Assembly: GCF_001570365.1 (NCBI RefSeq)
Contig: NZ_BBYK01000084.1
Coordinates: 1-45,104, forward strand
Reading direction: 5' to 3'
From: Microtetraspora fusca
Lineage (GTDB): Bacteria; Actinomycetota; Actinomycetes; Streptosporangiales; Streptosporangiaceae
Length of the DNA: 45,104 nt
This document shows, piece by piece, positions 2,956-10,205 of the stretch; position 1 is the first letter of the stretch, and each line of letters begins with the position of its first letter. The translations under genes and the position numbers were made by a program. Below the pieces are notes generated by a model, which was not told the origin of the DNA, searched no databases, and saw nothing but the letters and a program-made list of their open reading frames with translations.

Positions 2956-3087
2956 ATGGTTCTCCTCGATCTTCAGGGCATGGAGACCCCCGGTGGGGCC
3001 GGCTCGTACGGCGGCGGCAGCACGCTGACCGTGCTGACCTGCCAGTCGTGCCGGCCGAGCAACCTCAGCATCGTTCTCTGCCACTAG
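2956..3087 (+). CDS. amfS: class III lanthipeptide precursor (AmfS/RamS-like)
   Basis: This 43-aa peptide begins MVLLDLQGMETPGG, matching the LxDLQxM(E/D)TP leader of RamS and AmfS. The core holds two ring motifs: Ser22-xx-Thr25-xxx-Cys29 and Ser35-xx-Ser38-xxx-Cys42, the latter in SNLSIVLCH. This is the Ser-xx-Ser-xxx-Cys pattern of SapB-type lanthionine/labionin peptides. Two things are odd. Ring A uses Thr at the second position, which could give a methylated bridge. The linker between rings is QSCRP with a third Cys (Cys32), where AmfS has two residues. A near-perfect Shine-Dalgarno AAGGAGGTG (2941-2949) overlaps the synthetase stop. The probable product is a SapB-like morphogenetic surfactant peptide, by family analogy only. 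Confidence 0.93.
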   Translation: MVLLDLQGMETPGGAGSYGGGSTLTVLTCQSCRPSNLSIVLCH

Positions 3088-3130
3088 CAGAGGTCGGTCA
3101 TATGAAGGTCGCCCGTCCACGGCGGCCGCT

Positions 3131-3200
3131 CGGGCCCCGGGTGCTTGCGTCCGGGGCCCGACCCCTGCGGCCCCACCCCCGTCGAGCGGGTGGGGGCCGC
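3131..3200 (+). terminator. tandem hairpins between precursor and exporter genes
   Basis: There are two GC-rich stem-loops. The first has perfect 10-bp arms CGGGCCCCGG (3131-3140) and CCGGGGCCCG (3151-3160). The second, 3167-3200, pairs GCGGCCCCACCC with GGGTGGGGGCCGC with one bulge. Neither has a U tract. They could act as partial terminators or RNA-stabilising structures that let the precursor be made in excess over the exporter. Confidence 0.6.
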
Positions 3201-3307: not shown

Positions 3308-5215
3308 ATGGAGGCGGCAGACCGGCTGGTGGTCCGGACGATCCGGCACGGCGGCCCGTGGGTGTTCGTCCTGGCCGTGGTGGCCGTCGGAGGTTCGGTC
3401 CTCGAACTGGCCCTCCCGTACGTCATCGGCCGGACCGTGGACACGTTGACCGCTGGAACCTCTCCGGGCGTCCTCCCCGGCTCCGTCACAAGCTGCGCGC
3501 TGGTCCTCGCCGGAGTCATCGTCTGCGACAGCCTGCGCGTGTGGGCCTCCGGCGCGTCCGGCGCCGCCGCCTCGGCGTGGCTGCGCCACCGGACCATGAC
3601 GCACGTGCTCGGCGCCGGCCCCGCGTTGACCCGCCGCCTCCCCGAAGGGGACCTCACCACCAGGCTGGGCATGAACGCCGAGGAGACCGGGCACGCGCCC
3701 GAGGCGATCGTCACCGGCGCGTCCCTGCTGGTCCCGACGGCCGGCGGCCTGGTGGCGCTCGTTCTCATCGACCCGCTGTCGGCGCTCACCCTCGTCGCCG
3801 GGCTCGCGCTGATCGTGCTCGTGCTGCGCGCCTTCATGCGGGACACGTCCGAAGTCGTCGCCGCGTACCAGGGGACGCAGGGCGACATCGCCGCCCGCCT
3901 GGTCACCGCGCTGTCCGGCGCGCGTACGATCGCCGCCGCCGGGACGACGGAGAGCGAGGTCGCGCGGGTGCTCGCGCCGCTTCCCCTTCTGAGCGCGTAC
4001 GGCGAGGGCCTGTGGCGGGCGAACGCCAAGGCCGGGGTCCGCGCCGGCATCGTCGTGCCGCTTCTCGAGGTGGCGGTGCTCGTGGTCGGCGGCCTGCGGC
4101 TCGCCGGGGGCGATCTCACCGTCGGCGAGCTGTACGCGGCGGCACGGTACGCGGTGCTCGGCGCGGGGCTCGGCTCCGCGCTCGGATACGTCGGACGGCT
4201 GGCCAGGGCGCGGTCGGCGGCCGGACGGGTCCAGGAGCTCTGGCGGCAGCCTCCCCTGACGTACGGGCGGCGCGCGCTGCCCGCCGGTTCGGGAGCGCTG
4301 GAGTTCCGTGACGTCTCGGGGAGCGGGCTGCGCGGCGTCGACCTCGTCATCCCGGGCGGGGCGGCGGTCGCGGTGGTCGGCAGGTCCGGGTCCGGCAAGT
4401 CGGCGCTCGCCGCGCTGGCCGGTCGGCTGGCCGACCCGTCCGAGGGGACCGTGCTCCTCGACGGCGTGCCCGTGCGCGAGCTGTCCCGTACGGCGCTGCG
4501 CCGGGCGGTCGGCCACGCGTTCGAGCGGCCGGTCCTGGTCGGCGACACGGTCGGCGACGCGATCGGCCTCGGCCTGGCCGAAACGACCGAGAGTCTGGCC
4601 GACACGACCGAGGGTCTGGCGGACACGACCGAGGGGCTGGCCGACATGACCGAGAGGCTGGTCAACACGACCGAGGGGCTGGCCGACATTACCCAGCCGG
4701 AAGCGGACGAACAACCCCTTCTCCGCTCACAAGACCCTCTCGAGCCGGGACGAGACGCGCCTTTCGTCCCGGCGGCGCAGGCGGCCTGCGCCGACGAGTT
4801 CGTACGGCGGCTCCCCCTCGGCTATGCGACCCCGCTGGCGCAGGCGCCGATGTCGGGCGGTGAGCGGCAGCGGATCGGGCTGGCCCGCGCCTTCGCCCAG
4901 GGATCGCGCCTGCTGGTGCTGGACGACGCGACCTCCAGCCTCGACACCCTCACCGAACGCCGGGTCGCCGCCGCGCTCTCCGGCGAGCTGGGCGGGCGGA
5001 CCCGCATCCTGACGACCCACCGGGTCGCGACCGCCGCCAGGGCGGACGCGGTGCTGTGGCTGGAGGACGGGCGGCTACGCGGCTACGGCCCGCACGAGGT
5101 GCTGTGGGCGCGGGACCCCGCTTATCGGGCCGTCTTCCAGACCGATGTCCCCGATGTTCCCGGCGTCCCCGGAGTTCCCGGCGTCCCCGGCGTCTCGGAC
5201 GGGGGGCGGGCGTGA
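3308..5215 (+). CDS. amfA: ABC exporter subunit, permease-ATPase fusion (RamA/AmfA-like)
   Basis: The 635-aa half transporter has a membrane domain (about 1-300) followed by a nucleotide-binding domain. Walker A is GRSGSGKS with Lys364, the signature is MSGGERQ, and the H-loop is TTHR. Two catalytic positions look degenerate. Walker B reads VLDDATSSLD, with Asp540 where the catalytic Glu usually sits, and the Q-loop region reads AFERPVL without the usual Gln. An in-frame run of A(E/D)TTExL heptapeptides (about residues 424-463) is inserted between the Q-loop and the signature, and the C terminus has VPG repeats. It probably pairs with the next gene as a heterodimeric exporter of the lanthipeptide. 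The start follows GAGGAGGAC. The 3' end overlaps the next gene by four bases (GTGA). Confidence 0.92.
   Translation: MEAADRLVVRTIRHGGPWVFVLAVVAVGGSVLELALPYVIGRTVDTLTAGTSPGVLPGSVTSCALVLAGVIVCDSLRVWASGASGAAASAWLRHRTMTHVLGAGPALTRRLPEGDLTTRLGMNAEETGHAPEAIVTGASLLVPTAGGLVALVLIDPLSALTLVAGLALIVLVLRAFMRDTSEVVAAYQGTQGDIAARLVTALSGARTIAAAGTTESEVARVLAPLPLLSAYGEGLWRANAKAGVRAGIVVPLLEVAVLVVGGLRLAGGDLTVGELYAAARYAVLGAGLGSALGYVGRLARARSAAGRVQELWRQPPLTYGRRALPAGSGALEFRDVSGSGLRGVDLVIPGGAAVAVVGRSGSGKSALAALAGRLADPSEGTVLLDGVPVRELSRTALRRAVGHAFERPVLVGDTVGDAIGLGLAETTESLADTTEGLADTTEGLADMTERLVNTTEGLADITQPEADEQPLLRSQDPLEPGRDAPFVPAAQAACADEFVRRLPLGYATPLAQAPMSGGERQRIGLARAFAQGSRLLVLDDATSSLDTLTERRVAAALSGELGGRTRILTTHRVATAARADAVLWLEDGRLRGYGPHEVLWARDPAYRAVFQTDVPDVPGVPGVPGVPGVSDGGRA
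4577..4696 (+). repeat. in-frame 21-bp tandem repeat within the exporter ATPase domain
   Basis: Five 21-bp units start at 4577, 4598, 4619, 4640 and 4661, followed by a 15-bp partial unit. Each encodes a variant of Ala-Asp/Glu-Thr-Thr-Glu-x-Leu (for example ADTTEGL). The frame is kept throughout. The heptad pattern suggests an amphipathic helix inserted in the helical subdomain of the nucleotide-binding domain. Confidence 0.9.
5147..5191 (+). repeat. five 9-bp units encoding Val-Pro-Gly/Asp
   Basis: Five tandem GTYCCCGRN units encode VPD, then VPG four times, just before the stop of the first exporter gene. This is a flexible proline-glycine tail of unknown role. Confidence 0.85.
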
Positions 5216-6942
5216 TCTGGCGGGCGGTGACGCGGGAGCCGCGCCGGCTGGCGCGGCTGGCGGGATGGTCCCTCGCGGAGACGCTGCCCTCGTTCCTCAT
5301 CGGGCACGCGATCGCCCGCGCCATCGAGGACGGCTTCGCGGCGGGCAGGCCGGTCGCGGGGCTGGCCTGGCTCGCCCTGCTCGGCGGCGCATGGCTGGTG
5401 GCCGCGGTGGGCGCCCGGCAGTCCGTCCTGGCCGTCGCCGCGATCGCCGAGCCGTTCCGCGACGAGTTGCTGGCCCGGGTGGTCGGCGGCACCCTCCGCC
5501 ACGCGGTGACGCCGCCGTGGCGGCCGGGCGCGGAGTCGGTCGCCCGGTCCACCCTCCAGGTCGAGCTGGCCAGGGACGCCTTCGCCTCGGTGATCACGGT
5601 GGTCCGGTCGTTCGCGTTCACCGTGGTGAGCGTCGTCCTCGGCATGGCGACGCTCCTGCCGGCCATGCTGCCGCTGGTGCTGCCGCCGTTCGCCGCCGGG
5701 CTGGCGGTGTTCCTGCTGTCGCTGCCCGCCATGGCGCGCAGGCAGCGCGCCTTCCTCGTCGCCGACGAGCATCTGGCGGAGTCCGTGGCGGCGATGGCGG
5801 GGGGCCTGCGGGACATCGTCTCCTGCGGAGCCGAGGACCGCGTCGCCGCGGACGTCGGACGCGCGATCGCGGCGCAGGCGGCGGCGGCGCGCCGCGTCGC
5901 CCGCGTCACGGCGGTGCGCACGCTGTCGCTCGGCGTGGCCGGCTGGCTGCCCGTCCTGCTCGTGCTCGCGTACGGTCCCGGGCTCGGCGCGAGCGCCGGA
6001 GCCGTCGTCGGGACGCTCGCCTACGTCGTCCAGTCGCTCGCGCCCGCGCTCGGTGGCCTCGTCGAGGGGCTCGGGGTCAGCGGGGTGCGGCTGGCGGCGT
6101 CCGTCTCCAGGATTCGGGAGACCACGCCGTTGCCCGGTCCCGGGTCGAGGCGCGCCGGAAGGGGCCGGGGCCGGGCGGCCACCCCGCGCGGACCGCGCCT
6201 CGGGCCGCGGAGGACGGTCCGGCCGCGCGACACCCGGGTCGAGCTGCGCGGCGTGACGTTCGCGTACGGGCCGGAGGCGGAGCCGGTGGTGTCCGACCTG
6301 GATCTGGTCCTGCCCGAGGGGTGCCGCCTCGCCGTGGTCGGCCCGAGCGGGCTCGGCAAGTCCACCCTCGCGGCGCTGGTCACCGGCCTGCTCGAACCGT
6401 CCTCGGGAGAGGTCAGGATCGGCGGCGTGCCCGCGCGGGACGTCGATCCGGCCGCCCGCGTGCTGATCCCACAGGAGGCGTACGTCTTCCACGGCACGCT
6501 CCGCGAGAACCTCACCTACCTGTCCCCCGCCTCCCCCGCCGCCGTACGGAGGGCGATCGACGAGGTGGGCATGACGGAGCTGGCGCGCCGGATCGGCGGG
6601 CCGTCGGCGGAGGTCAACCCGGCGGCCCTGTCGGCGGGCGAGCGCCAGCTCATCGCGCTGACCAGGGCGTACCTGTCACCGGCCCGGCTGGTGATCCTGG
6701 ACGAGGCGACCTGCCATCTCGACCCGGCGGCCGAGGCACGGGCGGAGGCGGCGTTCGCCCGGCGCGGGGGCACCCTCGTCGTCGTCGCGCACCGGCTCAC
6801 CTCGGCGCTTCGGGCGCAGCACGTGCTGCTCATGGACGGCACGCGCGCACGGCTCGGCACGCATGACGAGCTGGTCGCCGTGTCGCCGCTCTACCGCGAT
6901 CTGCTCGGCCAGTGGACCCCCGACGTGAAGCAGGTGTCATGA
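5212..6942 (+). CDS. amfB: ABC exporter subunit, permease-ATPase fusion (RamB/AmfB-like)
   Basis: The start is the GTG at 5212, overlapping the previous TGA in the same GTGA arrangement used elsewhere in the window, which gives 576 aa. The open frame extends further upstream, but that part is the coding shadow of the previous gene. The membrane domain covers about residues 1-330. The nucleotide-binding domain has Walker A GPSGLGKS (Lys383), an intact Q-loop IPQEAYVFHG, signature LSAGERQ, Walker B LVILDEATCHLD with catalytic Glu498, and H-loop VAHRL. All ATPase residues are canonical, so in a heterodimer with the upstream subunit this chain would supply the hydrolytic site. It overlaps the downstream peptidase gene (ATGA), indicating one operon. 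Confidence 0.92.
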   Translation: MIWRAVTREPRRLARLAGWSLAETLPSFLIGHAIARAIEDGFAAGRPVAGLAWLALLGGAWLVAAVGARQSVLAVAAIAEPFRDELLARVVGGTLRHAVTPPWRPGAESVARSTLQVELARDAFASVITVVRSFAFTVVSVVLGMATLLPAMLPLVLPPFAAGLAVFLLSLPAMARRQRAFLVADEHLAESVAAMAGGLRDIVSCGAEDRVAADVGRAIAAQAAAARRVARVTAVRTLSLGVAGWLPVLLVLAYGPGLGASAGAVVGTLAYVVQSLAPALGGLVEGLGVSGVRLAASVSRIRETTPLPGPGSRRAGRGRGRAATPRGPRLGPRRTVRPRDTRVELRGVTFAYGPEAEPVVSDLDLVLPEGCRLAVVGPSGLGKSTLAALVTGLLEPSSGEVRIGGVPARDVDPAARVLIPQEAYVFHGTLRENLTYLSPASPAAVRRAIDEVGMTELARRIGGPSAEVNPAALSAGERQLIALTRAYLSPARLVILDEATCHLDPAAEARAEAAFARRGGTLVVVAHRLTSALRAQHVLLMDGTRARLGTHDELVAVSPLYRDLLGQWTPDVKQVS

Positions 6943-8996
6943 GATACCCCTATGTGGAGCGCCAGGCTGTCGTCGATCGGCTGCACGGCGTCGCCGTACC
7001 GGACCCCTACCGCCGCCTCGAGGACCCGGACGACGCGGAGACACGGAGGTGGCTGGCCGCGCAGGACGACCTCTGGCGGGCACACGCCGCCGCTCTGCCC
7101 GGCCGGGCCCGGCTGTACACGCGGCTCGCTGAGCTGGCGGACGCGGGCATGGTCACCGCGCCGCTGTGGCGGGGCGAGCGGGCGTTCTTCCTGCGCCGTA
7201 CGGCGGGGCAGGAGCACGCGGCGCTCCACGTCACCGGGCCGGGCCCGGCCGAGCAGCTTCTCCTCGACCCGTCGGTCATCGACCCGACCGGCCTGACCAC
7301 GCTTGACGCGTGGCAGCCCGACCCGGACGGCGGCCTCCTGGCGTACCAGATCTCGCGCAGGGGGGACGAGCGGTCGGAGCTGTACGTCATGGACGTCCGG
7401 ACGCGCCGCGTCGTGGACGGGCCGGTCGGCCCCTGCCGCTACTCCCCCGTGGCGTGGCTGGCCGGCGGGACCGGCTTCTTCTACGTGCGCACCGAGCCGC
7501 GCGGCGTCTTCCTGCACCGGACGGGCATCCCGGTGGACGTCCCGGTCTTCGCCCGCGAAGGGGTCGCCTCGTACGGGCTGGAGATCAGCGCGGACGGCCG
7601 CTGGCTCGTCGTCTCCGCGTCCCTCGGCTCGCGCAACGACCTGTGGCTGGCCGACCTGGCCGGGGGCCGCCCCGAGGAGCCTGATCTGCGGGTCGTACAG
7701 GAGGGCGTGGACGCGCGGACCGCGCTGACCGTCGCCCGCGACGGCCGCGTGTACGTCGTCACCGACCGGGACGCGCCCCGGGTGCGGCTGTGCGTGGGCG
7801 ACCCGCAGCGGCCGGACGTGTGGAAGGACCTGGTCCCGGCCGACCCGGAGGCGGTTCTCGCGGACTTCGCCATCCTCGACGGAACCGGGCCGAGCCGCCC
7901 CCTGCTGCTCGTCACCCACATCAGGCACGCGATCGCCGAGATCGGCGTCCACGATCTGGACACGGGCGAACGGCTCGGCTCCGTGCCGCTGCCCGGCGCG
8001 GGATCCGTCGGCTCCCTGTCCGTACGGCACGGCCGCGAGGCGTGGTTCACCTACACCGACCACGTCACACCGCCTGCGGTGTGGCGCTTCGACGGCCGCA
8101 CCGGCGAGACCGCCCCCTGGCCCGACCCGGGCGCGCGGGCCGCCATACCTGGCGGACGGCCGCGCGGCTCCTCGTCCGGCGACGAGGAGCCGCGGATCGA
8201 GAGCCACCGGCTGCACTGCGTCTCGGCCGACGGGACTCGGGTATCGATGCTCGTCATCGCGCGGGCCGGTTTGCACGGGCCGAGGCCCGCGATCCTGTAC
8301 GGCTACGGCGGGTTCGGGGTCGCGCTGACCCCCGCGTACGCCGCCGACACCCTGGCGTGGACCGAGGCCGGCGGTGTGGTGGCGGTGGCCATGGTGCGCG
8401 GCGGCGGCGAAGAGGGCGAGGAGTGGCACCGCGCCGGCATGCTGGAGCGCAAGCAGAACACCTTCGACGACTTCGTCGCGGCGGCGGAGAAGCTGATCTC
8501 CGACGGCTGGACCACTCCGGACCGGCTCGGGATCTGGGGCGAGTCGAACGGCGGCCTGCTGGTCGGCGCGGCCCTGACCCAGCGGCCCGACCTGTTCGCC
8601 GCCGCGGTCTGCTCGGCCCCGCTCCTCGACATGGTCCGCTACGAGCGCTCCGGCCTCGGCCCGGCCTGGCGGGGCGAGTACGGCTCGGCCGAGGATCCGG
8701 ACCTCTTCCGCTGCCTGCTCGGCTACTCGCCCTATCACCGGGTGCGCGAGGGCGTGGACTATCCCGCCACGCTGTTCACCGTCTTCGGCGGGGACACCCG
8801 CGTCGATCCCGCGCACGCGCGCAAGATGTGCGCCGCCCTCCAGCAGGCCACCGGCGGCGATCGGCCGATCCTGCTGCGGCACGAGGGCGACGTGGGGCAC
8901 GGGGCCCGGGCCACCAGCCGGGCCACCGCGCTCGCCGCCGACACTCTCGCCTTCATCGCCGCCCACACGGGCCTCTTCCAGCCGGAACACCGGTGA
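6939..8996 (+). CDS. S9A prolyl oligopeptidase, probable lanthipeptide leader protease
   Basis: This is a 685-aa serine peptidase from an ATG that overlaps the exporter stop. The N-terminal part has the POP feature HGVAVPDPYRRLEDPDD and a beta-propeller-sized middle region. The C-terminal alpha/beta-hydrolase domain has the nucleophile in WGESNGG (Ser536), a probable Asp619 in GGDTRVDP and His654 in GDVGHGA. The family cleaves after proline in short peptides and lacks a secretion signal, which fits here. Prolyl oligopeptidases trim leaders in some class III systems (FlaP and AplP types). The precursor offers Pro12 in METPGG as a candidate site and Pro34 in the hinge. The role in maturation is inferred from position and family. 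Confidence 0.9.
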   Translation: MRYPYVERQAVVDRLHGVAVPDPYRRLEDPDDAETRRWLAAQDDLWRAHAAALPGRARLYTRLAELADAGMVTAPLWRGERAFFLRRTAGQEHAALHVTGPGPAEQLLLDPSVIDPTGLTTLDAWQPDPDGGLLAYQISRRGDERSELYVMDVRTRRVVDGPVGPCRYSPVAWLAGGTGFFYVRTEPRGVFLHRTGIPVDVPVFAREGVASYGLEISADGRWLVVSASLGSRNDLWLADLAGGRPEEPDLRVVQEGVDARTALTVARDGRVYVVTDRDAPRVRLCVGDPQRPDVWKDLVPADPEAVLADFAILDGTGPSRPLLLVTHIRHAIAEIGVHDLDTGERLGSVPLPGAGSVGSLSVRHGREAWFTYTDHVTPPAVWRFDGRTGETAPWPDPGARAAIPGGRPRGSSSGDEEPRIESHRLHCVSADGTRVSMLVIARAGLHGPRPAILYGYGGFGVALTPAYAADTLAWTEAGGVVAVAMVRGGGEEGEEWHRAGMLERKQNTFDDFVAAAEKLISDGWTTPDRLGIWGESNGGLLVGAALTQRPDLFAAAVCSAPLLDMVRYERSGLGPAWRGEYGSAEDPDLFRCLLGYSPYHRVREGVDYPATLFTVFGGDTRVDPAHARKMCAALQQATGGDRPILLRHEGDVGHGARATSRATALAADTLAFIAAHTGLFQPEHR

Positions 8997-9095: not shown

Positions 9096-9815
9096 TCAGC
9101 GCCGGGGCGCCGTACGGCCGGGGACCGGGGCACGCTCGGCGCCGCCGGAGCCGCGCCGAGGGCCGAGGGGCGGGTAGTGGACCATGCCGATGTCGCCGCC
9201 CGTCTCCGGCCACAGCCAGCCGCGCTCCAGCGAGATCCTGATCGCCTCCACACGGGTACGGGCGCCGACCTTCGGCAGGATGCGGCACAGGTAGTTCCGT
9301 ACCGTCCCCGGAGACAGATAGAGCCGGTCGGCGATCTCGGTCACCGTGGAGCCCTCGGCGGCGACCTGGAGAACGTCCAGCTCCCGCGAGGTGAGCGGGT
9401 TCTCCGGGGCGTTGAGCGCGGCGAGGGCCAGCTCGGGGTCGATCACCCGCTCCCCGCGCGCCACCCGGCGCACGCAGTCGACGAGCTGCTCGGCCGAGGC
9501 GTCCTTGACCATGAAGCCGCGCGCCTTGGCCCCGAGCGCCCGGCGCAGCGCCGCCGGGGTGCCGAGGCCGGTGAGGATCACCGTCTTGCATTCGGGCATC
9601 CGCTCGTGCAGCTCGGCCGCGGCCGTCAGGCCGTCGACGCCGGGGAGGCAGATGTCGAGGAGCGCGACGTCCGGACGGGTCTCCCCGGCGAGCGGGACGA
9701 TCTCGCCGCCCTCGCCGGTCTCCGCGACCACCTCCAGGTCCTCCTCCGTGGAGAGCAGCGCCACGAGGGCCGATCGGACAAGGTGCATGTTCTCCGCTAG
9801 CAGTAGACGGATCAA
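9096..9815 (-). CDS. amfR: orphan NarL/LuxR-type response regulator (RamR/AmfR-like)
   Basis: I choose the TTG start at 9815 because AAGGAG lies 7 bases before it and the protein then begins MIRLLLAENM, a receiver-domain beginning; this gives 239 aa. The receiver has Asp54 (LLDICLP), Thr82 (ILTG) and Lys104 (FMVKDAS). The acidic pair that binds Mg is Glu8-Asn9 instead of two acids. The LuxR HTH covers about 139-200 (LTSRELDVLQVAAEG, SPGTVRNYLCRIL). The tail of about 35 residues is Pro/Arg-rich. No sensor kinase gene lies nearby. It is convergent with the lanthipeptide operon and by analogy with RamR/AmfR should activate it. Confidence 0.9.
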   Translation of the reverse strand: MIRLLLAENMHLVRSALVALLSTEEDLEVVAETGEGGEIVPLAGETRPDVALLDICLPGVDGLTAAAELHERMPECKTVILTGLGTPAALRRALGAKARGFMVKDASAEQLVDCVRRVARGERVIDPELALAALNAPENPLTSRELDVLQVAAEGSTVTEIADRLYLSPGTVRNYLCRILPKVGARTRVEAIRISLERGWLWPETGGDIGMVHYPPLGPRRGSGGAERAPVPGRTAPRR

Positions 9816-10205
9816 GCCCGTTCTCCTTATGCGCCTTGGCAAGGTCGGTTGCACGCGATTTCTCCCCCGGCCCGCACAGCTTCGTATCTCTCCCCCTTGG
9901 AGTCTGCGCCCACTCCATTTCGGAAATATAGCGTTACCTTATGCCGAGGCACTGAAATACCGTGATCTAGCTGGATTATTTCTCCAGCCTCACCAAGATC
10001 AGACGCCAGGCCGCTCCCGACGGTTTACCGGCGCATCCCACCACATCAACGAGCAGGACACCCGTCTCATCGTTGATCCACGCACCTCACAACAGATCCG
10101 GACAATTCGCAATGAATTTAACAAACCATAGGGACTCGGATATAGATCCACCGATTACGCCATTTCCTGGCGAATATGGAGTTCCAAACCGCGCGGGATC
10201 CCCCA
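9816..10205. other. non-coding, lower-GC region upstream of the response regulator
   Basis: These 390 bases have no convincing gene and are clearly more AT-rich than the neighbours (for example around 9,915-9,990 and 10,105-10,150). They probably hold the promoter of the response regulator, whose ribosome-binding site AAGGAG is at 9823-9828. I see no strong terminator or clear operator. Confidence 0.5.

Follow-up and report, generated by a model that had tools for sequence, protein, structure and literature searches.

The closest described systems are SapB (RamS) and AmfS, whose precursors have a hinge of two residues between their rings and whose clusters have paired ABC exporters and a neighbouring regulator, as does the locus described here. 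Flavipeptin (FlaA/FlaP), from Kribbella flavida, combines a prolyl oligopeptidase (POP) encoded in its cluster with a leader proline. In the labyrinthopeptins and paenithopeptins, both class III, cysteines occur beyond those of the thioether rings, and the labyrinthopeptins contain a disulfide. The paenithopeptins have a labionin inside a disulfide-bridged ring (PMC8960859), an arrangement that would need two further cysteines.

The DNA that we analysed, hereafter the window, is a stretch of 45,104 nucleotides from Microtetraspora fusca (contig NZ_BBYK01000084.1 of assembly GCF_001570365.1). Positions 2956-3087 of its forward strand encode a 43-residue LanA precursor, MVLLDLQGMETPGGAGSYGGGSTLTVLTCQSCRPSNLSIVLCH, which scores above the curated thresholds of both Pfam RamS (PF19402; 51.3 bits, cut-off 24.3) and NCBIfam SapB_AmfS_lanti (NF033212; 51.6 bits, cut-off 25), and which is the sole RamS match at E <= 0.001 in the genome of 9,023,190 bases. 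The translation comprises a leader up to the conserved Pro12, the predicted POP cut (2956-2991); a Gly-rich spacer of residues 13-21 (2992-3018); ring A, S22-T-L-T25-V-L-T28-C29 (3019-3042); the hinge Q30-S31-C32-R33-P34 (3043-3057), with the Cys32 codon TGC at 3049-3051; and ring B, S35-N-L-S38-I-V-L-C42, with the C-terminal His43 (3058-3084), all on the forward strand. Judged by its sequence, the gene is a SapB/AmfS-family class III lanthipeptide precursor, within a subfamily whose members come from Streptosporangiaceae-type genomes and from Kribbella. The sequence-only reading from which we started had described a SapB/AmfS-type precursor with exactly this leader, two ring motifs, Thr25, a QSCRP hinge and Cys32, and the translation and family matches bear it out. 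It had also called the hinge three residues longer than that of AmfS, and the AmfS-type precursor that we fetched (L175) indeed has a two-residue hinge.

The locus thus shares with SapB and AmfS the family assignment, a LanKC synthetase, the leader motif LLDLQ and two S/T-xx-S/T-xxx-C motifs (S22-T25-C29 and S35-S38-C42). Unlike them, it has a five-residue hinge of the form xSxxP, a threonine as the second residue of ring A, a POP gene in the operon and, in this species, a third cysteine. Its likeness to flavipeptin lies in the cluster-encoded POP and the leader proline. Like the labyrinthopeptins and paenithopeptins, the window peptide has a cysteine beyond those of its rings, but it does not have two: of its three cysteines, two lie within the ring motifs, leaving Cys32 as a single spare.

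The precursor gene lies within an intact operon of the order LanKC-LanA-ABC-ABC-POP on the forward strand. The first gene (388-2952) encodes an 854-residue class III lanthionine synthetase of the RamC/AmfT type (NF038151, 1097.6 bits against a cut-off of 575; RamC_N, Pkinase and LANC_like domains). LanA starts 3 bases past the LanKC stop codon and is preceded by GGAGG. It is followed by two ABC exporters, the first (ABC1; 3308-5215, 635 residues; ABC_membrane and ABC_tran) with permease and ATPase, the second (5212-6942) of 576 residues with an ABC_tran match, and by a POP of the S9 family (6939-8996; Peptidase_S9_N and Peptidase_S9), whose closest relatives of solved structure are prolyl endopeptidases (E 1.9e-117) and which is a candidate leader peptidase. 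Convergent to the operon, at 9096-9854 on the reverse strand, is a LuxR-type response regulator (Response_reg, GerE), a candidate counterpart of RamR/AmfR. Among named clusters, the nearest come from Microtetraspora malaysiensis, with a LanKC that is 95% identical, M. niveoalba (91%) and M. glauca (86%).

By tblastn, this gene order is kept in 12 of 14 distinct related loci of sufficient span (L059, L012 and L020 were too short to be counted), namely three from Microtetraspora, three from Actinomadura, that of Nonomuraea gerenzanensis, and those of genomes G308, G315, G309, G312 and G302. At the two remaining loci, from Kribbella turkmenica (L058) and G460 (L226), a precursor of the window's subfamily is again accompanied by POP, here placed between LanA and the ABC genes. 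The response regulator has a tblastn match near 12 of the 14 loci, at only 33% identity in G308 and G309, and no match in the stretches from M. niveoalba and G312.

Between LanA and ABC1, at 3130-3161 of the forward strand, lies a 14-bp GC-rich hairpin, possibly an attenuator or a processing site. A similar long hairpin is predicted in all four loci folded, the window included; the whole stretch folded from the window gave z = -1.96 (9 of 200 shuffles were as good), and the relatives gave z = -3.29 to -5.12. ABC1 itself contains two repeats. A 21-bp tandem repeat of 5.5 copies (4574-4688) runs in frame and encodes LADTTEG-like units at a linker of the ATPase domain, where length and low-complexity content vary across four aligned relatives, and a 9-bp repeat (5147-5194) encodes a V-P-G repeat tail. 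This tail reads DVPDVPGVPGVPGVPGVSDGGRA in the window and FQTDVPGFSDGGRA in M. malaysiensis, so the V-P-G unit has been expanded in the window.

How unusual the hinge and the Thr ring are was judged against related precursors. A script collected peptides of 28-62 residues with the leader pattern and at least two cysteines, yielding 233 distinct genes from 228 records; RamS matches occurred in 190 of 345 genomes, and the collection draws on a part of these, at their stronger places. When the window peptide was searched across the order, 120 of the 345 genomes gave a match, in 85 cases with E no higher than 1.0e-8; all 85 were fetched, as read from the locus list, together with part of the 35 weaker ones. 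A search of 394 genomes sampled from the class gave matches in 16. Four further subfamily genes came from searches other than the order-wide one, three of them in genus g105; we term it Kribbella-type, since Kribbella turkmenica and G460 fall together in the LanKC tree. One precursor (L048) fails the leader pattern and so is not one of the 233; it has two cysteines and does not belong to the subfamily.

With rings parsed as having two or three residues ahead of the cysteine, a choice on which hinge lengths depend, a hinge of five residues is the commonest, with 177 genes; 27 genes have one residue, 20 have two, 7 have three, and lengths of four and seven occur once each. With this range of 1 to 7, a two-residue hinge is no defining trait of the family; the trait that the window peptide lacks is that of SapB and AmfS. 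The five-residue hinges that end in proline delimit a subfamily; it numbers 125 genes, which encode 96 distinct proteins and fall into 90 locus groups, and in it the hinge pattern xSxxP, threonine as the second residue of ring A, and Pro12 of the leader are each present in 125 of 125 genes. Hinge length and Thr25 had both been put forward as peculiarities of the window peptide; neither is distinctive, as many precursors have the same hinge and the same ring. Together they define a large SapB/AmfS-like subfamily outside Streptomyces, whose examined clusters encode POP.

Within this subfamily, conservation is divided sharply between rings and hinge. S22, L24, T25, C29, S31, P34, S35, S38, C42 and H43 are invariant in all 96 distinct proteins, and the highest entropies of the core fall at hinge positions 32 (2.64 bits), 30 (2.44) and 33 (2.13). 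In 107 nearest-neighbour comparisons, which are not independent as reciprocal pairs are counted twice, codon differences at these three positions were 57 nonsynonymous to 19 synonymous; at the other 19 core positions, they were 46 to 234. Without constraint, ratios of 3.60, 3.01 and 2.55 to 1 would be expected at positions 30, 32 and 33, and of 2.73, 2.39 and 2.10 to 1 at the other 19, under transition weights of 1, 2 and 4. As 57:19 about equals the expected 3.01:1, the three hinge positions appear close to unconstrained, and positive selection on the hinge is unsupported; the other 19 positions are, by these codon counts, strongly conserved. Between members of tandem arrays, positions 30, 32 and 33 account for 22 of 42 core differences, and the core is the same in 30 of 47 paralogue pairs. 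Some constraint is left at position 32, because Ser, Asp and Arg never occur there in the 125 genes, though each is one base from GGC. With frozen rings and nearly free residues 30, 32 and 33, these peptides form a clean natural series in which a link between hinge and species specificity could be sought.

The third cysteine is a different matter from the hinge that holds it. Position 32 is Gly in 52 of the 125 subfamily genes, His in 20, Tyr in 14, Val and Gln in 10 each, Asn in 8, Ala in 7, Cys in 3 and Leu in 1, and more than two cysteines anywhere occur in 5 of the 233 genes. The third cysteine outside both ring motifs, described in the sequence-only reading, is real and rare. The two other peptides with Cys32, from G308 (L107; hinge ESCTP) and G315 (L118; hinge ESCKP), belong to the same subfamily but have G28 where the window has T28. 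Each comes from a cluster of three tandem precursors, the other two of which lack the cysteine. Among the further genes with more than two cysteines, L164 has its extra cysteine in the Gly-rich leader spacer, and L200 (SCYSRCCGGG) is another type of precursor with one clear ring motif, like L046.

On a LanKC tree of 18 rows, at least three changes are required to explain where Cys32 occurs, a minimum that holds when only the well-supported branches are used. The window groups with M. malaysiensis (QSGRP), as do G308 with G309 and G315 with G312 and G302, and none of these partners has the cysteine. A single origin is disfavoured by these three changes, unless followed by losses; each of 500 random shuffles of the label gave an equally low score, and a gain with losses could give the same count. 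Three separate gains are the simplest history. The tree shows the scatter of Cys32, not its cause. At the nucleotide level, the window's TGC differs by one base from the codon GGC found in M. glauca and M. niveoalba, and by two from the GGG of M. malaysiensis.

We favour, with a probability of about 0.7, a reading in which the window encodes a subfamily lanthipeptide that receives two rings, is cut by POP and is exported, and in which Cys32 is a recent substitution that leaves a free thiol. LanKC would dehydrate the precursor and then close two rings, S22/T25/C29 and S35/S38/C42. POP would cut after Pro12, preferably with the rings already present; FlaP, from the flavipeptin cluster, is reported to cleave efficiently after a leader proline only when the macrocycles have been installed (PMC10885120). 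Such a cut would require protection of Pro34, at the edge of ring B, and the ring itself may be the protector. The two ABC exporters would then secrete the peptide, whose probable role, given its family, is that of a morphogen of aerial growth. For the piece that begins at Gly13, the calculated monoisotopic mass is 3037.442 without modification, 2965.400 with four dehydrations and 2947.389 with five; a disulfide dimer of the form with four would have 5928.784.

The rings may be of the lanthionine or the labionin type, a choice that the sequence does not reveal: synthetases of this group yield lanthionine alone, labionin alone or both, and which of these a given enzyme makes is difficult to foresee (PMC13380574). 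The methyl-type bridge that the sequence-only reading proposed for ring A would need closure of the labionin type at Thr25. The lanthionine form of the motif, closed from the first serine to the cysteine and described for some class III peptides (PMC7268733), would instead leave Thr25 as dehydrobutyrine.

As for the thiol, the favoured reading takes Cys32 as a recent, tolerated substitution at the freest position of a loose connector. With both other cysteines placed in ring motifs, a free thiol is the simplest state for Cys32. It most likely joins no ring; once outside the cell it may oxidise, form adducts or dimerise. An intramolecular disulfide, one of the fates suggested earlier, is disfavoured: with one spare cysteine rather than two, it would need a ring cysteine to be left free. 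Class III cyclases may, however, use a third thiol, which counts against a spare one, and Cys32 may itself be under selection, which rates averaged over the set would not reveal. Among open-licence papers, none was found that joins AmfS, SapB and a disulfide, nor one on a class III lanthipeptide with a third cysteine, and titles and abstract openings made no mention of a hinge cysteine.

A thiol of this kind could also have been kept for a function. Pairing of Cys32 with Cys32 after export, or a bond to a surface thiol, would produce a larger amphiphile or an anchored morphogen. That three separate clusters place a cysteine at this one point of the hinge would fit such a role, as would its lack of an intramolecular partner, both other cysteines being in ring motifs; and since the RamS search of the genome found no second RamS-type precursor at E <= 0.001, a RamS-type partner would be another copy of the same peptide. 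The distribution of Cys32 speaks against it: G308 and G315 carry the cysteine in only one of three tandem precursors, the closest relatives lack it, and it is the second rarest of the nine residues seen at the position. Nor was a thiol oxidoreductase among the genes identified in the operon or the genes adjoining it, which is the extent of our annotation. We consider this explanation unlikely.

A broader form of the idea makes the hinge a variable code between frozen rings that tunes species specificity or assembly, with repeated Cys32 giving a covalent dimer or an anchored form and, in the window, possibly a shifted, overlapping labionin as well; the peptide would then be SapB-like with working thiol chemistry. 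A role of the hinge in specificity is conceivable in that a relative is reported to act species-selectively (PMC13380574). We regard this proposal, too, as improbable.

We give somewhat less credence still to a change in the rings themselves. Here Cys32 would compete with Cys29, and LanKC would use T25-xx-T28-xxx-C32, alone or in addition to S22-xx-T25-xxx-C29, with a shifted or an overlapping ring as the outcome. The third thioether raised by the sequence-only reading is possible on paper, as T28 and C32 complete this second motif in exact register, a combination of S/T28 and C32 that no other of the 125 genes has, and the variable, hardly predictable products of this group of synthetases (PMC13380574) would accommodate it. 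But with S/T28 in 54 and C32 in 3 of the 125 genes, chance alone would bring the two together in about 1.3 genes, and G28 rules the shift out in the Cys32 peptides of G308 and G315, so it offers no general reason for the cysteine. A sequencing or assembly error at the Cys32 codon is very improbable: TCG-TGC in the window against TCC-GGC in two congeners does amount to two neighbouring base changes, but Cys32 also occurs in two other assemblies, each with its own codon context.

With the Cys32 peptides it can be asked in a simple way how a class III cyclase deals with a third thiol: by passing over it, by using it, or by being led astray.

Three other loci met in the course of the searches deserve mention. 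In Microtetraspora sp. NBRC 16547, LanKC similarity (L060, = G082:C67, 163-960) ends after residue 273 in unrelated DNA, and neither a RamS nor a window-peptide match was found in that genome (G082); the cluster looks broken or misassembled. The genome of M. fusca holds a second class III LanKC, 46% identical to the first (L190, G000:C39:431425-433914). A script found no RamS-like open reading frame at this locus; just downstream of the synthetase, however, a 32-residue frame on the reverse strand (1336-1434), MAYVLQLQGLNVSQDTSGSACYSHVTSYAGTC, looks by eye like a class III precursor of another type, and an upstream frame resembles, again by eye, a cytochrome P450. Finally, the Nonomuraea gerenzanensis record L061 is filed as a plasmid in PLSDB, yet at 11.85 Mb it is the size of a chromosome.
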